Shown: positions 3,165-18,518 of the stretch, in pieces | Position numbering within the stretch: the first letter of the stretch is position 1 | How the letters are laid out: every line of letters begins with the position of its first letter | Source of the DNA: Veillonellales bacterium | Lineage (GTDB): Bacteria; Bacillota; Negativicutes; Veillonellales; Dialisteraceae | Assembly: GCA_944390485.1 (NCBI GenBank) | Contig: CALXPQ010000006.1 | Coordinates: 1 to 64,000 of the forward strand | Direction: 5' to 3' | Length of the DNA stretch: 64,000 nucleotides | The notes under the pieces: generated by a model | What the model was told of the DNA's origin: nothing | Databases searched by the model: none | Seen by the model: the letters and a program-made list of their open reading frames with translations, nothing else | Program-made: the position numbers and the translations under genes

Positions 3165-4787
3165 TCACCACGCGGCGGCGACGCCGTCCGCTCTCGGCTC
3201 AGTCGCGCCGACGAGGACGCCTTCTTCATTTCTCCAGATGATCTCCCCGCGGCCGAACTGGGACATGTCCTCGAGCACGCGGATGTCGTGACCCATGGCC
3301 TGGAGCTGCTCCACCGCCTGCAGCGGCAGACCCGGCTCTACATCGAAGTGGAGGCCGCCGGTCCACTGCCAGCGCGGCGCGTCGAGCGCTTCCTGCGGGT
3401 TCATGTGGAAATCGATGACGTTGGTGATGACCTGGAGATGACCCTGGGGCTGCATGAAGCCGCCCATGACGCCGAAGGGTCCCACCGCCCGGCCTTCTTT
3501 CGTGAGGAAGCCCGGGATGATGGTGTGATACGTGCGCTTCCGCGGCGCGAGGCAGTTCACGTGCTCTTCGTCGAGGCTGAAATTGTAGCCCCGGTTCTGG
3601 AAGGCGATGCCGTAGCCCGGCACGACCACGCCGCTGCCGAAGTGGCAATAGTTGCTCTGGATGTAGGAGACCATATTGCCTTCCCCGTCGGCGGTGCAGA
3701 GATAGACCGTGCCGCCGCACCGCGGGTCGCCGTAATGCGGCGCGAGCGCGTGGTCCGTGATCTCCGCGCGGCGGGCCGCGCCGTACCGGTCGGAGAGGAG
3801 GTCCGCCACGGAGGCCTTCATGTACTTCGGGTCGGTGACGTACCGGTCGCCGTCGGCGAAGGCCATCTTCATGGCCTCCATCTGGCGGTGGAGCGTCTCG
3901 GCGGTGTCCCGGGCTCTGAAATCGAAGCCTTTCAGGATATTGAGCGCCATGAGCGGCACGATGCCGTGGCCGTTCGGCGGGAGCTCCCACACGTCGTAGC
4001 CGCGGTAATTGACGGAGACCGGCGTCACCCACTCGGGCTGCCACTCCGCGTAGTCTTCCTTCCGCACGTAGCCGCCGGTCTCGCGGGAAAAGGCGTCGAT
4101 GGCGTCGGCGATCTCCCCGCGGTAGAAGCTCTCGCACCCGCTGTCGCGGAGCTTCTCCAGCGTGGCCGCGTGGTCGGGGAGCTTCATGAGCTCGCCCGCG
4201 CGGGGCGGACGGCCGTCTTTCAGGAAGGTGGTGAACCATCCTGCCAGGGCCGGCTCGTCTTTCATCTGGATGAGCTCTTTATATTCTTTCATCCACTCGC
4301 ACGCCACGAAGGACGACACGGGGTAGCCGTAGCGCGCGTAGTGGATGGCCGACTCGAAGAGCTCGCCGAAAGGCAGCTTCCCGAAGCGGCGGGAGAGCGA
4401 GATCCACGCAGACGGCGCGCCGGAGACGGTCACGGGGATCCAGCCCCGCTTCGGCATTTCCGTATACCCCTGCGCCCGGACGGCTTCGGCGGAGATGCCC
4501 TTCGGCGCCCAGCCGCTCGCATTGAGGCCGTACATCTTGTCTTTCATCCACACGATGGCGAAGGCGTCGCTCCCGATGCCGTTCGATACCGGCTCCACCA
4601 CGGTGAGGGTGATTGCCGTGGCGATGGCCGCGTCCACGGCGTTGCCACCCTTTTTCAGCATGTCCAGCCCGGCCTGCGCGGCGAGCTGCGACGCGGTGCA
4701 CACCATGCCCCGCTGCCCGTACACCACGCTCCGGCGGGACGGATAGCGGTAATGCTGTTCGTCTACATGAAAATTCAGTTCTCCCAT
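3165..4787 (-). CDS. Gamma-glutamyltransferase family protein
   Basis: 541 residues. The enzyme family is an N-terminal nucleophile hydrolase that cleaves itself and moves or hydrolyses the gamma-glutamyl group of glutathione and related peptides. The predicted nucleophile is T360 in CGGTVY, followed by the conserved DGEGNMVS and QSNY...GSGVV stretch; the N-terminal part has the usual GGNAVDAA (47-54). Start ATG 4787 is set by GGGGG nine bases upstream; an in-frame ATG at 4796 would have no room for one. There is no signal peptide, so unlike the periplasmic Ggt of enterobacteria this looks cytoplasmic, as in the YwrD-like branch. It leads a three-gene minus-strand cluster. Confidence 0.88.
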   Translation of the reverse strand: MGELNFHVDEQHYRYPSRRSVVYGQRGMVCTASQLAAQAGLDMLKKGGNAVDAAIATAITLTVVEPVSNGIGSDAFAIVWMKDKMYGLNASGWAPKGISAEAVRAQGYTEMPKRGWIPVTVSGAPSAWISLSRRFGKLPFGELFESAIHYARYGYPVSSFVACEWMKEYKELIQMKDEPALAGWFTTFLKDGRPPRAGELMKLPDHAATLEKLRDSGCESFYRGEIADAIDAFSRETGGYVRKEDYAEWQPEWVTPVSVNYRGYDVWELPPNGHGIVPLMALNILKGFDFRARDTAETLHRQMEAMKMAFADGDRYVTDPKYMKASVADLLSDRYGAARRAEITDHALAPHYGDPRCGGTVYLCTADGEGNMVSYIQSNYCHFGSGVVVPGYGIAFQNRGYNFSLDEEHVNCLAPRKRTYHTIIPGFLTKEGRAVGPFGVMGGFMQPQGHLQVITNVIDFHMNPQEALDAPRWQWTGGLHFDVEPGLPLQAVEQLQAMGHDIRVLEDMSQFGRGEIIWRNEEGVLVGATEPRADGVAAAW

Positions 4788-4869
4788 ACGTTTCATCCCC
4801 CTGCATGGAAATCCCGCGGCTTCGCGCCGCTCTCCGCGGGGCGCCCGTCGCCCCTGCGATTCTGCCCTT

Positions 4870-4875
4870 ATTATA
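4870..4875 (-). promoter_or_regulatory. Extended -10 promoter of the gamma-glutamyltransferase gene
   Basis: TATAAT preceded by TGT on the minus strand gives an extended -10 (TGnTATAAT) about 85 bases before the start codon. No good -35 is visible. Confidence 0.55.
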
Positions 4876-4927
4876 ACAAATTCCTGACAGAGAAATGACA
4901 GCTTCCGCAAATTTCCGCGCGAAATTG

Positions 4928-4962: not shown

Positions 4963-5316
4963 CATCACAGAAAAATGCGCTGAAGAGAATCAGTAGCTTG
5001 CGCTGAAGGTGCAGAGAGCCGCGGGACGGTGCGACGCGGTGCGGATGCGGAAGTGAACTCGTCTCGGAGCAGCCCGTTGAACTCACAGTAGACGGCGCCG
5101 GATGCCTCCCGTTAGCAAAGGCAGGTCTATGACCGCAGAGGGCATGCTCCGGCATGAAATAGAGTGGTAACGCGAACGCTTTCGTCTCTTGGGACGAAGG
5201 CGTTTTCTGTTTTTCTCCCCTCTGCCGAGACCGGAAAGCGCCCGGTTCGTCCGGGAAGCAGAGTGGTACCGCGGGGCCCCCGTCTCTCCAGGAGAAAGGG
5301 GCCCTTTTATTTTTCC
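4963..5316 (+). promoter_or_regulatory. Leucine T-box riboswitch with two antiterminator/terminator modules
   Basis: This leader senses uncharged tRNA-Leu and lets transcription enter leuCDB when leucine is short. The GA motif (GAAGAGAATCAG) lies near 4983, the apical AGAGAGCC bulge near 5022, and the specifier triplet CUC at 5058-5060 after GTGAA. A Stem II S-turn (TGAAC/AGTA) follows near 5090. Two T-box sequences then appear: a variant AGAGTGGTAACGCG at 5161-5174 with terminator 5175-5215, and a canonical AGAGTGGTACCGCG at 5260-5273 with terminator 5274-5316. Only about 45 bases separate them, so the second module has no sensor of its own. The first has GTAAC where GTACC is usual. Confidence 0.9.
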
Positions 5317-5357: not shown

Positions 5358-6617
5358 ATGGGAATGACAATGACGCAGAAAATCATGGCGGCCCATGCAG
5401 GGATGGACTCGGTGAAGCCGGGCGATCTCATCTACTGCAAGCTGGATCTGGTGATGGCCAACGACATCACCGCGCCGCCGTCCATCAAGGAATTCGACAA
5501 GATCGGCTGCCCGGTCTTCGACCGCACGAAGATCGCGCTCGTGCCGGACCATTTCACGCCGAATAAGGACATCAAGTCCGCAGGCCTGGCGAAGATCGTC
5601 CGCGACTTCGCGAAGAAGCACGACATCGAGCACTATTTCGAAGTGGGCCGCGCGGGCATCGAGCACGTCATCCTGCCGGAGATGGGCCTCGCCGCCCCGG
5701 GCATGATGATCATCGGCGCGGACTCCCACACCTGCACCTACGGCGCGCTCGGCGCGTTCTGCACGGGCGTGGGCTCCACCGATCTGGGCGTCGCCATGGC
5801 GACGGGCGAAGCGTGGTTCAAGGTGCCGGAAGCCATTAAAGTCGTCCTCACGGGGACGAAGCCCGAGGACGTCACCGGCAAGGACGTGGTGCTCACGCTC
5901 ATCGGCATGATCGGCGTGTCCGGCGCGCTCTACCAGTCTCTCGAATTCACCGGCCCGGGCGTGGCGTCTCTCTCCATGGCGGACCGCCTCTCCATCGCCA
6001 ATATGGCCATCGAAGCGGGCGCGAAGAACGGCATCTTCCCGGTGGACGAGCGGACCCGCGCCTACGAAGAGGGCCGCGTCTCCCATCCGTACACGGCGTA
6101 CGAGGCCGACCCCGACGCGGAGTACGCCCGGACCATCGAGATCAATCTGTCCGAGCTCTCCCCGGTGGTGGCCTTCCCGCACCTGCCGGAAAACACAAAG
6201 GTGGTGGGCACCTTCGGCGAGATCAAGATCGATCAAGTCGTGCTCGGCTCCTGCACGAACGGCCGGCTGGAAGATCTGGCCATCGCGGCGCGCATCTTCA
6301 AAGGGCACAAAGTCCACCCGGACGTGCGGTGCATCGTCATCCCCGGCAGCCGTCAGGTCTACCGCGACGCCATGAAGGCGGGCTACATCGACACCTTCAT
6401 CGAAGCGGGCTGCGCGGTCTCCACGCCCACCTGCGGGCCGTGCCTGGGCGGCTACATGGGCATCCTCACCGCCGGCGAGCGGTGCGTGTCCACCACGAAC
6501 CGCAATTTCCGCGGCCGCATGGGCCACGTGGACAGCGAAGTCTATCTCGCAGGGCCGCAGACCGCGGCGGCCAGCGCGATTCTCGGCAGGATTGCAGCAC
6601 CGAAGGAGGTCCGGTAA
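5358..6617 (+). CDS. leuC: 3-isopropylmalate dehydratase large subunit
   Basis: 419 residues. With LeuD it isomerises 2-isopropylmalate to 3-isopropylmalate in leucine synthesis. The three ligands of the [4Fe-4S] cluster are visible as C299 (GSCTNGR), C359 and C362 (CGPCLGG); the substrate-loop motif [10 protein letters not shown] is at 121-130. The length of about 420 puts it in the shorter, archaeal-type LeuC group rather than the 470-residue E. coli type, which agrees with a separate small LeuD. AGGAGG sits ten bases before ATG 5358. First gene of leuCDB, under the leucine T-box. Confidence 0.95.
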
Positions 6618-6618
6618 C

Positions 6619-7113
6619 ATGGCTATCGAAGGCAAAGTCTGGCGCTACGGGGACAACATCGACACGGACGTCATCATCCCCGCAAGATATCTCAATTCAT
6701 TCGACCCGAAGGAGCTCGCCTCCCACTGCATGGTGGACATCGACGAGAGCTTCGCGCAGAACGTCCAGCCCGGCGACATCATGGTGGGCGGCCGGAACTT
6801 CGGCTGCGGCTCTTCCCGCGAGCACGCCCCCATCGCCATCAAGGCGTCCGGCGTGCCGGTGATCGTGGCGGCGAGCTTCGCCCGCATCTTCTACCGGAAC
6901 GGCATCAACGTGGGCCTGCCGCTCCTCGAGATCGGCGACGACGTGGAGAAGATCCATGCCGGCGACCGGCTCCGCATCGACCTCTCTACCGGGAAGATCG
7001 AAGACCTCACCACGGGCGACGTCTTCCAGGCACCGCCGCTCCCCGGCTTCATCCAGGACATCGCGAAGGCGGGCGGCCTCGTCAATTACGTAAAGGAGAA
7101 AAAGCAGAAATGA
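6619..7113 (+). CDS. leuD: 3-isopropylmalate dehydratase small subunit
   Basis: 164 residues, partner of LeuC. The motif GGRNFGCGSSREHAP at about 55-69 is the swivel-domain signature of the aconitase family, and the start contains the DNIDTDVIIP segment. Start ATG 6619 was chosen because AAGGAGG lies at the end of leuC and the gap after the leuC TAA is a single base; the upstream in-frame ATG at 6592 lies inside leuC. The gene overlaps leuB by four bases (ATGA), so the three proteins are likely translated in step. Confidence 0.95.
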   Translation: MAIEGKVWRYGDNIDTDVIIPARYLNSFDPKELASHCMVDIDESFAQNVQPGDIMVGGRNFGCGSSREHAPIAIKASGVPVIVAASFARIFYRNGINVGLPLLEIGDDVEKIHAGDRLRIDLSTGKIEDLTTGDVFQAPPLPGFIQDIAKAGGLVNYVKEKKQK

Positions 7114-14329: not shown

Positions 14330-15277
14330 TCAGTTGCCTCCTTTCGGGGATTTCTTCAGACGGCGGGCGATGTACTTCACCGCGTCATAGGACAGGATGC
14401 CGTCCGGGCGGAAGCCCATGAGCGCCACCAGCATGAGGCCGTAGATGATGTCGCGGTATTCGGACATGGCGCGGAGGGATTCCGGCACGATGGTGAGGAC
14501 GGTCGCCCCGAGGAGCGGGCCCCACATGACGTTGCTGCCGCCGAATACGGTGTAGAGCAGCATGTCCACGACTTTGTGCCACGTGAAGTCGGTCGGGCTG
14601 ATGAAGTAGGTGGCGTGCGCGTAGAGCGCCCCGGCCACGCCGGCGAAGAAGGCGCTGAAGAGGAACGCCATCATTTTGTAGTACACCACGTTGATGCCGG
14701 AGAGGGACGCGGCGTATTCGTCCGCCTTGATGGCGGCGAAGGCGCGGCCCACGCGGGAGTGTTCCAGTTTGTACCAGAAGAAGAAGATCAGCACCACGAG
14801 GATGAGAAGGGCGATGCACATGAGGAGCTGCCCTGCGGTCTGGGAATCGAGGCCGAGCGCGTCGATGAGGCCCAGGTCGCTCGCGTAGTCAGAGAGCGAG
14901 CTCGCCATGGACGGGATGCCCGAGAGGCCGAGCGCGCCGTTCGTGATCTTCATATTGAGGGCGATGACGCGCACCACTTCGCCGAAGCCGAGCGTCGCGA
15001 TGGCCAGGTACAGGCCGCGGAGCCGGATGGTGGGGATGCCGATGATGAGGGCCACCGCCGCCGCGACGATGCCGCCGCAGAGGATGGAGAGGGGCATGGG
15101 CACGTCCAGCTTCATCGCGAGGATGGCCGAAGTGTACGCGCCGAAGCTCATGAAGCCCGCGTTGCCCAGAGAGACCAGCCCGGTGCACAGCGTCATGTAG
15201 ATGGTGAGCGCCAGGATGATGTTGATGCAGATGAACACAAAGACCTGCAGAAAGTAACCATTGAGCAATTCTTCCAT
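14330..15277 (-). CDS. livM: Branched-chain amino-acid ABC transporter, permease LivM
   Basis: 315 residues with about nine hydrophobic segments. Recognised by the LivM pattern LVSLGNAGFMSFGAYTSAI near residue 35, IATLGFGEVVRVI near 95, and GRAFAAIKADEYAASLSGI near 180, the cytoplasmic loop that touches the ATPases. It forms the membrane channel with LivH. Its ATG overlaps the livH stop by one base (TAATG). Confidence 0.95.
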   Translation of the reverse strand: MEELLNGYFLQVFVFICINIILALTIYMTLCTGLVSLGNAGFMSFGAYTSAILAMKLDVPMPLSILCGGIVAAAVALIIGIPTIRLRGLYLAIATLGFGEVVRVIALNMKITNGALGLSGIPSMASSLSDYASDLGLIDALGLDSQTAGQLLMCIALLILVVLIFFFWYKLEHSRVGRAFAAIKADEYAASLSGINVVYYKMMAFLFSAFFAGVAGALYAHATYFISPTDFTWHKVVDMLLYTVFGGSNVMWGPLLGATVLTIVPESLRAMSEYRDIIYGLMLVALMGFRPDGILSYDAVKYIARRLKKSPKGGN

Positions 15278-16164
15278 TACGGTCTTCCTCCTTTCCCAGC
15301 CTTAGAGAACAATCCTTCCGGCCGGAGGAAAAGGATCAGGATGATGAGGCCGAAGGCGACGGCGTCGCGGTAGGTGGACGCCCCGTAGGCGACGCTGAAG
15401 ACTTCCGCGATGCCCAGGATGAATCCGCCCGCCATGGCGCCTTCCACATTGCCCAGGCCCCCCATGATGAGGACGGCCAGGCCCTTGAAGCCCATCGCCG
15501 TGCCCATGGTCGGCTCGATCGCGTTGAAGGAGAGGCCGATGAGGACGCCCGCCGCCGCGCCGAGGGCCGACGCGAGCATGACGGTGAAGGTGATGATGAG
15601 GCCCGTATTGATGCCGAGGAGACCGGCGGTCTCGATATTTTCCGAAGTGGCGCGCACCGCCTTGCCGATCTTCGTCTTATTCAGCATGAGCGCGAGGAGC
15701 ACCATGAGGACGACCGCCGTGCCGAGGCTGACGATCTGGATGCCGGAGATCTTGAAGGCGCCCATGTCCATGAGCTCGCTGCTGATGGTGGACGGGAAGG
15801 ATCTCGTCTGCGGGCCCCACACGAGGAGCGCCACGCTCTCGAGGAAGATCGACACGCCGATGGTGCTGATGAGCGGAGCCAGATGGGTGACTTTGCGGCG
15901 GCGCAGCGGACGCAGCGCAAAGAGCTCCAGTAAATACCCGAGGACCGCCCCGCCGATCATCGCGCCGATGAGCGCCGGGAAGATCCCCATGCCAGCCTCT
16001 GTGACGAGCAGGAGCCCGATGTACGCGCCCACCATGAAGATGCCGCCGTGCGCCATGTTGACGATGTTCAGCACGCCGAAGACCAGCGTGTAGCCGATGG
16101 CGATGACCGCGTAGGCGCTGCCCAGAGTCAAACCGTTGATAAGCTGCTGAGAAAACACGTTCAT
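15277..16164 (-). CDS. livH: Branched-chain amino-acid ABC transporter, permease LivH
   Basis: 295 residues with about eight hydrophobic segments; the N-terminus QQLINGLTLGSAYAVIAIGYTL... and NMAHGGIFMVGAY are the LivH signature, and AVRATSENIETAGLLGI is the ATPase-coupling loop. It is the first gene of livHMGF and is preceded by a 500-base leader holding two T-box sensors. The gene for the binding protein (livJ) lies just upstream on the same strand but has its own promoter and T-box. Confidence 0.95.
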   Translation of the reverse strand: MNVFSQQLINGLTLGSAYAVIAIGYTLVFGVLNIVNMAHGGIFMVGAYIGLLLVTEAGMGIFPALIGAMIGGAVLGYLLELFALRPLRRRKVTHLAPLISTIGVSIFLESVALLVWGPQTRSFPSTISSELMDMGAFKISGIQIVSLGTAVVLMVLLALMLNKTKIGKAVRATSENIETAGLLGINTGLIITFTVMLASALGAAAGVLIGLSFNAIEPTMGTAMGFKGLAVLIMGGLGNVEGAMAGGFILGIAEVFSVAYGASTYRDAVAFGLIILILFLRPEGLFSKAGKGGRP

Positions 16165-16260: not shown

Positions 16261-16756
16261 AAAAGCCCCTGCCGCAGTCTCCGCCGATGACTGTGACAGG
16301 GGCGCTTCCGCGCGGTACCACCCTATTTTTTGCTCTCGGGAAACGCGTACCGGGGCGGTCTCCTTCCATAAAAAATCCCCTACCTGCATGCGCAGATAGG
16401 GGCGTTTGACGCGGTACCACCCTACATTATACTTTGTTTCCGATCCGTAACGAGGATTCACGCCTTTCCTTACTCCATTCAGGAAAGGAGCTCCCGAGTG
16501 ATATATTGGGAATACGGAATGCGCCGTCTTGCACCGCCCGCCGGCTCTCTGCAGTCATGGACCGTCTTCCTTTTTGCTCTCGATCATAGCCTGTGCGCCT
16601 GATAACGGAGGCAGCGCCGGCAGATACTCGATTTCCCCGCCGGGACTCCCAGGTGAGCTTGCGTCCCGCTGCCCGCCGGCTTCCACCAGCCGCCGGCTCT
16701 CTGTGCCGCGTGACAGGGCGCTTTTCCCTGATCTTCGTCTTTCTGATTCGGTTATA
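16261..16756 (-). promoter_or_regulatory. Double-sensor (Leu + Ile) T-box leader of livHMGF with two terminator modules
   Basis: On the minus strand two complete sensor parts stand in a row. Sensor 1 has a GAAGATCAG GA-motif near 16735, the apical AGAGAGCC, specifier CUC (16655-16657, Leu) and a Stem II S-turn (GGAA/AGTA) near 16625. Sensor 2 has ATGATCGAGAG near 16585, AGAGAGCC again, specifier AUC (16500-16502, Ile) and an S-turn (TGAA/AGTA) near 16475. No T-box motif lies between them. Then follow AGGGTGGTACCGCG at 16410-16423 with terminator 16370-16403, and a second copy at 16311-16324 with terminator 16261-16303. Specifiers were placed by aligning the closing GGGAGC segment with the leucine leader. 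Confidence 0.85.
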
Positions 16757-16762
16757 TCGTAT

Positions 16763-16790
16763 ATTATACAAATTTTGCAGGGCCTGTCAA
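16763..16790 (-). promoter_or_regulatory. Promoter of livHMGF
   Basis: TTGACA (16785-16790) and TATAAT (16763-16768) on the minus strand, 16 bases apart, immediately before the double T-box leader. Confidence 0.85.
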
Positions 16791-16944: not shown

Positions 16945-18111
16945 TTATTCCAGCGGCACCCACTGCCCGTTCTTGACCTGGAGGATGTCCAGCTCCATCT
17001 TCGGATCGCGGTTCTCATCGAATTCGAACTGGCCGGTCGCCCCTTCGAAGCCTTTGATCTTGGCGAGGGTATCGCGGAACTTCTTGCGGTCCGTCGTGGT
17101 GCCGGACTGTTCCACCGCCTGATGGAGCGTGTACATTGCGTCGTAAGCCTGTGCGGAGAACTGGTCCGGTTCATGGCCGTACTTCTCCTTGAAGGCCTTG
17201 CGGAAAGCCTGGGCCTTTTCGGTCTGGCGCTCCGGATTCCACGGGGTCGCGACCAGCGTGCCGTCCGCCGCGGCGCCCGCCTGCTTGATGTATTCCGGGC
17301 TGTTGAAGCCGTTGTTGCCGATGATCATCTGGTTCATGCCCATGTCGCGGGCTTTCTTGGCGATGAGCGCGCCTTCCTGGTAGAGGCTGGCCACGCAGAT
17401 GATGTCCGGATTCGCCGCCTGGATCTTCGTGAGCTGCGCGGAGAAATCCGTATCCTTTTCCGCGAAGGTCTCGGTGGCCACTACGTCGATGCCCATTTCC
17501 TTGAACAGCTCCTGATAGATGCCGTTCTCGCCCACCATCTGGTCATTGTTGTTGCAGTAGAGGATGGCCGCCGTCTTGAATCCCAGCTTGTCGTGGGCCT
17601 TCTTCACGGTCTGCGGGATGGCCATCTTGCCGGGGATGGCGTTGCGGAAGATGTAGTCGCCGATGTCGGTGATGCCCGGCGCGGTGGTGCCCGTGCCGAA
17701 GGCTACGACTTTCGACTGCTGGGCGATCGGGCCGGCGGCGAACATCTCGCCGGAGAAGGTCGGGCCCTCGATGGCCAGCACCTTGTCCTGCTCGATGAGC
17801 TTCTTCATGGCGTTGATGGCTTCGGTCTTGTTGCCCTTCGTGTCATAGAACGCGATCTCCAGCTTCACCTTCGTATTCGGGTTCGCGTTGATCTCCTCCA
17901 CGGCGAGGTCCACGCCTTCCTTCATGGCGATGCCGTACGCCGCCCCGGGGCCGCTCGTCGCTTCGAGGACGCCGATCTTCGCCGTCTTGCCCGCCGCGCC
18001 GGACGCGCCGCCTTCCGACTTCTCTCCGCCGCCGCAGCCTGCGAACGCTCCTGCGAGCATCAGAGCGGCCCCTGCCGCTGCCAGACGTTTCATCCATTTC
18101 TTTTCCATCAT
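16945..18111 (-). CDS. livJ: Branched-chain amino-acid ABC transporter, substrate-binding lipoprotein
   Basis: 388 residues. A lipoprotein signal peptide ends in LAGAFAGC (lipobox cysteine near residue 26), so the mature protein is anchored in the envelope. The rest is a type I periplasmic-binding fold of the Leu/Ile/Val group (IGVLEATSGPGAAYG, then EGPTFSGEM and PQTVKKAHDKLG). It captures the amino acid and hands it to LivHM. Start ATG 18111 is preferred because AAAGGGG lies seven bases upstream; an ATG eight codons earlier lacks a site. It has a valine T-box of its own, so binding protein and permease are controlled separately. Confidence 0.93.
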   Translation of the reverse strand: MMEKKWMKRLAAAGAALMLAGAFAGCGGGEKSEGGASGAAGKTAKIGVLEATSGPGAAYGIAMKEGVDLAVEEINANPNTKVKLEIAFYDTKGNKTEAINAMKKLIEQDKVLAIEGPTFSGEMFAAGPIAQQSKVVAFGTGTTAPGITDIGDYIFRNAIPGKMAIPQTVKKAHDKLGFKTAAILYCNNNDQMVGENGIYQELFKEMGIDVVATETFAEKDTDFSAQLTKIQAANPDIICVASLYQEGALIAKKARDMGMNQMIIGNNGFNSPEYIKQAGAAADGTLVATPWNPERQTEKAQAFRKAFKEKYGHEPDQFSAQAYDAMYTLHQAVEQSGTTTDRKKFRDTLAKIKGFEGATGQFEFDENRDPKMELDILQVKNGQWVPLE

Positions 18112-18168
18112 TGTTGTGCCCCTTTCTTTGTCCATTCCGTAAACTCTGCCTTCAGTACAGCCTCGCCA

Positions 18169-18518
18169 TGAAAAAAAGCCCCCGCCTCCGGATGCATGCT
18201 TTCCGGAGACAGGGGCGCTTCTCGCGCGGTACCACCCTTTGTTTCACTCGCCTACGGTACGCCGCAGGGCCCGCCGTATACAAAAAGCCCCCATCTCATC
18301 TCGAGATAGGGGCGATGTTCCGCGGTACCACCCTACATTGTACTTATAGGAGTGTCCGTAACGGGGACCGGCCGTTCCTTCTTACTGGATTCAGAAGAAA
18401 TACTCACGAGGGACATATCGCACTCCAGTATGCATCAGCTTGCACCATCCGCTGACTCTCTGCAGTCATCTCTGAAACGCTCTTTCAAATCTCGTTCATC
18501 GTATCTGCTGTATTGAAT
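18169..18518 (-). promoter_or_regulatory. Valine T-box leader of livJ with two antiterminator/terminator modules
   Basis: On the minus strand Stem I starts with ATGAACGAGA near 18500, carries the apical AGAGAGTC near 18455 and the specifier GUC (Val) at 18412-18414 followed by CCTCG. The Stem II S-turn (TGAA/AGTA) lies near 18385. Two T-box motifs follow: AGGGTGGTACCGCG at 18321-18334 with terminator 18282-18313, and a second at about 18224-18237 with terminator 18171-18216. The second module has no Stem I of its own. Both terminator stems are close relatives of the corresponding livH stems, so the two leaders probably arose by duplication and differ in the specifier by G versus A at its first base. 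Confidence 0.88.

Follow-up and report, generated by a model that had tools for sequence, protein, structure and literature searches.

A livHMGF leader with two T-box sensors of different specificity ahead of two gates in the Dialister family

A leader on the minus strand (16757-16260) precedes the livHMGF operon in a 64,000-nucleotide stretch of DNA, hereafter called the window, from a gut bacterium of the Veillonellales. It lies between livJ (16945-18135) and livH (15277-16164), and in it two T-box sensors are followed by two antiterminator/terminator gates. How might a sensor for leucine and a sensor for isoleucine together control one operon? The original prediction had described the order sensor-sensor-gate-gate (S-S-G-G) and had left the choice between AND and OR logic open; the comparative evidence presented here leans towards OR. 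The following features were assigned to the locus.

16763-16790, minus strand: promoter, TTGACA-16-TATAAT, sigma-70 type, 12 of 12 positions matching the consensus
16600-16744, minus strand: sensor 1, with Stem I (K-turn, specifier loop, AGAGA/GGTG apex), Stem II with S-turn, and F-box IIA/B element
16655-16657, minus strand: sensor 1 specifier CUC (Leu), register from CM alignment
16597-16643, minus strand: sensor 1 Stem II and IIA/B, with F-box CCGTTA at 16608-16603 and a GCCT/AGGC pseudoknot whose pairing was assigned by eye from the sequence
16448-16596, minus strand: sensor 2 (Stem I, Stem II, F-box), inside the RF00230 match 16596-16395
16500-16502, minus strand: sensor 2 specifier AUC (Ile), from CM alignment
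16396-16427, minus strand: gate 1 antiterminator, T-box sequence AGGGTGGTACCGCG, RF00230 match
16370-16402, minus strand: gate 1 intrinsic terminator, from the terminator scan, overlapping the 3' half of the gate 1 antiterminator
16296-16327, minus strand: gate 2 antiterminator, T-box sequence AGGGTGGTACCGCG, RF00230 match of 23.9 bits
16260-16303, minus strand: gate 2 intrinsic terminator, a hairpin followed by TTTTT
15277-16164, minus strand: livH (NCBIfam LivH, 3.3e-55, below the curated cut-off), first gene of the regulated livHMGF operon, which extends to about 12850

The leader was searched with the Rfam T-box model RF00230, and three matches were obtained. The strongest (16596-16395, 82.6 bits) comprises the full sensor 2 together with gate 1, the second (16738-16645, 33 bits) is Stem I of sensor 1, and the third (16328-16298, 23.9 bits) covers the antiterminator of gate 2 only; Stem I of both sensors and the antiterminators of both gates were thus matched, as had been anticipated. 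The livHMGF leader was absent from an Rfam scan of the whole window at the gathering threshold. A default scan overlooks it because no match attains the gathering score of 93. Matches to miRNA and NsiR1 models in the leader lay far below cut-off and were dismissed.

Sensor 1 proved to be a credible sensor in its own right. When searched alone against RF00230 it scored 50.3 bits (E 1.3e-10), with a match that ran from Stem I through Stem II to the F-box, ended there and included no antiterminator. The two sensors have no T-box sequence between them, in agreement with the original prediction, whose letters and coordinates for the CUC and AUC specifiers were also right. The two specifier loops are separate and lie 155 nt apart. 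Stem I with a specifier loop and an AGAGA/UGGUGNAA apex is present in both sensors, as are the Stem II S-turn and the F-box; the specifier loop of sensor 1 in the window genome has a 5' side without a full AGUA. Both specifiers carry an A directly 3', as is usual in T-boxes.

At both gates an antiterminator with a UGGN bulge competes with a terminator; the T-box sequence of gate 1 is GGTGGTACCGCG. RF00230 matches, terminator scan and folding energies agree on two such modules behind the sensors, and hence the predicted S-S-G-G order stands. The terminator is the stronger structure in each case, with -21.0 versus -8.6 kcal/mol for the antiterminator at gate 1 and -29.6 versus -12.2 kcal/mol at gate 2. 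The window genome contains a tRNA-Leu(GAG) with A73-CCA, which complements the UGGU of the gates. tRNA-Ile(GAU) was missing from the set of tRNA genes that were read, which is probably due to a gap in the draft genome. The gates cannot discriminate leucine from isoleucine tRNAs by sequence, because UGGU would fit any A73 isoleucine tRNA as well.

The full 500-nt leader was found at 87-90% identity in two other genomes of the same genus, and a second genus of the family has the same layout before livH in three genomes, Dialister succinatiphilus and Dialister sp. UBA1703 among them. In total, six genomes from two genera of the Dialister family have S-S-G-G ahead of livH, always with CUC in sensor 1 and AUC in sensor 2; across the Dialister-type leaders each of the two specifiers is the same in all seven. 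The TTGACA and TATAAT elements of the promoter are retained in most relatives. The livH orthologues are 90-98% identical, so that the leader is one and the same by descent. A further livH copy, the ninth, is located at a contig edge, with its leader falling outside the sequence.

Sensor 1 has no antiterminator of its own and scores below sensor 2 in the window genome; it could be the decaying remnant of a once complete upstream T-box. We turn to the covariation in the seven leaders. Among 33 proposed pairs of sensor 1, 92.5% of the cells were paired, and the Stem I apical helix and the whole of Stem II were paired in all seven sequences; Stem II alone contributes 7 pairs, 100% paired, with two-sided changes in 5. 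Two-sided changes occurred at 15 pairs as compared to a shuffled mean of 7.9, a number reached in 0 of 500 shuffles, a comparison in which kinship among the sequences can beat the shuffles without any structure. Such a structure-free excess is unlikely here because of the counts per pair and because a slid control, in which the partner was shifted by one to three columns, gave just 1-3 two-sided pairs. Folding energy was less informative. Single Stem I folds had the right shape with z-scores close to those of shuffled sequences, for which reason covariation and not folding energy was taken as evidence; the thermodynamic fold of the whole leader came out as a mixed structure, its z-score was weak (-1.76), and it was set aside.

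Selection acts on the structure of sensor 1, which is maintained by compensatory change. Searched alone, it reached 67.2 bits (E 6.4e-15) in Dialister succinatiphilus and 60 bits in genome G009, a member of the second genus. Decay of a former T-box is highly improbable in view of the two-sided compensatory changes across two genera at 0 of 500 shuffles, the invariant CUC, the 60-67 bits in Dialister genomes and a sensor 1 clade that predates the split of the genera. Conservation in six genomes and covariation in sensor 1 show that the two-sensor layout is not due to chance; both lines of evidence support the two complete Stem I/Stem II sensors that had been predicted.

The distribution of the layout was surveyed with a pattern that requires two Stem I apexes at a distance of 131-161 nt in 84,980 species genomes, and with a looser two-apex pattern in 380 class-level and 398 phylum-level genomes. 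Among the matches of these patterns, which cover the stated spacings and let one of eight true cases escape (genome G011, with a longer apical loop), real cases were confined to livH leaders of the Dialister family. Matches outside the family were inspected and found to be chance, complete tandems, or cases in which the second 'apex' was the AGAGAG...GGGTGG of a gate. A sensor tree, the resolution of which is limited by the short sequences, places the sensor 1s in a clade of their own (support 0.975) near Leu-type T-boxes and the sensor 2s elsewhere; the sensor 1 clade is older than the split of the two genera. An origin of sensor 1 as a recent local copy of sensor 2 was rejected on these grounds. 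From its separate position in the tree, sensor 1 looks like an older leucine T-box sensor that was set ahead of an isoleucine T-box.

Furthermore, the number of gates was compared between leaders of the family. Two leaders have two sensors and one gate. In genome G009 (L066, 710-1191; Dialister-like) a Leu and an Ile sensor precede a single hybrid gate, which corresponds to gate 1 of the relatives in its 5' part and to gate 2 in its 3' part; it looks like the product of recombination between the two T-box repeats, possibly in a recent deletion. In Allisonella histaminiformans (L160, 987-1435) the order is reversed, Ile then Leu, again ahead of one gate; the Stem II of the second sensor is reduced and its S-turn and F-box are weak. 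A 'reciprocal specifier swap' was entertained for Allisonella but abandoned, since the tree leaves its sensors without a firm place. The converse arrangement was found in the related genome G004 (L059, 547-760), where one sensor is followed by three successive T-box/terminator gates. One-sensor leaders with two gates occur at several loci of the window genome, including the following two in the window.

18208-18508, minus strand: livJ leader, one-sensor T-box with two gates (RF00230 90.6 bits plus a partial match at gate 2; alignment; motif scan)
4971-5270, plus strand: leuC leader, Leu (CUC) T-box with one sensor and two gates, 5' of leuC (3-isopropylmalate dehydratase large subunit, 5358-6617)

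The specifier of the livJ leader is probably GUC (Val); the base after this putative GUC is C and not the usual purine. Given GUC at livJ, the livJ and livHMGF leaders would between them account for Val, Leu and Ile. Two further livJ-like genes of the window genome (L052, contig C7 of G000) have leaders at 4593-4887 (AUC) and 6417-6707 (CUC), both of the one-sensor, two-gate type; these specifiers were read in the CM register. T-boxes with duplicated terminator-antiterminator elements were reportedly described by Vitreschak and colleagues in 2008; they resemble the livHMGF leader in having two gates in a row, an arrangement common in the window genome, and differ from it by having one sensor instead of two. 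Gate doubling is thus habitual in this family. It was observed here chiefly at branched-chain amino-acid genes and is independent of sensor doubling. One bacterial family thus holds S-S-G-G, S-S-G, S-G-G and S-G-G-G leaders. Since two-sensor leaders with one gate and one-sensor leaders with two or three gates exist, sensors and gates are not matched one to one. The two sensors and two gates of the original prediction are real; the pairing of particular sensors with particular gates that it implied is not supported, in view of the gates doubled or (once) tripled behind single sensors and of the two relatives with one gate.

The same comparison bears on AND logic. The S-S-G-G order nests like brackets: sensor 2 with tRNA-Ile would open gate 1, and the folded complex would bring sensor 1 to gate 2, to be opened by tRNA-Leu, so that the operon would be read when both amino acids are short. 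Such nesting is physically attractive, the two different sensors equal the two gates in number, and the spacing from the F-box of sensor 2 to the T-box of gate 1 is 31-33 nt, as in a normal T-box. However, single sensors also have double gates, two relatives retain both sensors with one gate, and joint control is ill suited to a shared permease that serves separately regulated Leu and Ile binding proteins. We consider nested AND control unlikely.

Control by either tRNA fits these observations better. In the one-gate relatives a single gate binds one tRNA 3' end and both specificities are kept nevertheless, which points to either-tRNA control. Three livJ-like binding proteins each have their own leader (AUC, CUC and probably GUC), and the livHMGF permease and ATPases are shared; these common components would be needed whenever any livJ-like protein is made. 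OR logic suits this physiology, because the binding proteins have leaders of their own and the permease and ATPases are common to all. On this comparative basis, a transcriptional T-box whose two complete sensors feed shared gates that either tRNA opens has, in our estimation, about an even chance of being the correct description. In such a switch, sensor 1 would bind tRNA-Leu(GAG) and sensor 2 tRNA-Ile(GAU), and the uncharged 3' end of either tRNA would base-pair with UGGU in a gate and stabilise that gate as antiterminator. A shortage of leucine or of isoleucine would then allow RNA polymerase to enter livHMGF. Gate 2 would repeat the test and lower leakage, as it may do in the one-sensor double-gate leaders of the same genome.

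Several points count against OR logic. The specifier loop of sensor 1 has an incomplete AGUA in the window genome, tRNA-Ile(GAU) was not among the genes read, and there are just two one-gate leaders, one of them possibly a recent deletion. Distance is a further point: some 180 nt, sensor 2 included, separate the end of sensor 1 from gate 1, and we know of no T-box shown to act across such a folded insert. Sensor 1 might consequently only modulate, by holding tRNA-Leu and altering folding or pausing, or by slightly regulating gate 2 alone. Besides its distance from the gates, this is suggested by the adjoining sensor 2, which alone completes a standard T-box (82.6 bits). But sensor 1 has kept its specifier, apex, S-turn, F-box and helices, the full set for tRNA decoding and for a Stem II-type sensor, and a purely modulating role appears improbable.

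The leader was compared with known systems. It resembles the transcriptional T-box riboswitch with Stem II (RF00230) in its Stem I with specifier and apex, its Stem II S-turn and F-box and its UGGN antiterminator/terminator, and differs from the ordinary form by two complete sensors of different specificity ahead of doubled gates. More than one sensor per leader is also found in tandem T-boxes such as the Bacillus subtilis thrZ, trp and ilv leaders (PMC12452182). In those, each unit consists of a sensor and a platform, and contiguous T-boxes are mostly complete units (PMC12452182), whereas sensor 1 of the livHMGF leader has no antiterminator/terminator of its own. A single leader that binds two tRNAs, tRNA-Asn and tRNA-Glu, was described by Saad et al. 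(2013), as summarised in PMC4052509; according to that summary two overlapping codons lie in one specifier loop, in contrast to the two separate full sensors found here. The glycine riboswitch likewise places several sensors before a shared platform, but its tandem aptamers bind the same ligand cooperatively, and the livHMGF sensors read two different tRNAs. 'Partially tandem' T-boxes are named in a 2020 review (PMC7583486) among features with mode of action unknown, with anatomy not given; the livHMGF leader possibly belongs to the same broad category. Double gates, full tandems and two-codon Stem I elements are known. Two whole sensors of different specificity with common gates are apparently new, as no description was found in the open-access literature searched, outside which some key papers lie.

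Taken across species, the leaders suggest two-input tRNA logic, in which two sensors for different amino acids share gates opened by either tRNA (or only by both) and in which sensor number, sensor order and gate number vary independently; we regard this broader proposal as rather probable. If it is true, a T-box sensor can reach a gate with another folded sensor in between, sensing can be separated from gating in modular fashion, and one leader can compute on two tRNAs. The natural set of S-S-G-G, S-S-G, S-G-G and S-G-G-G leaders makes the question of which sensor serves which gate directly testable.
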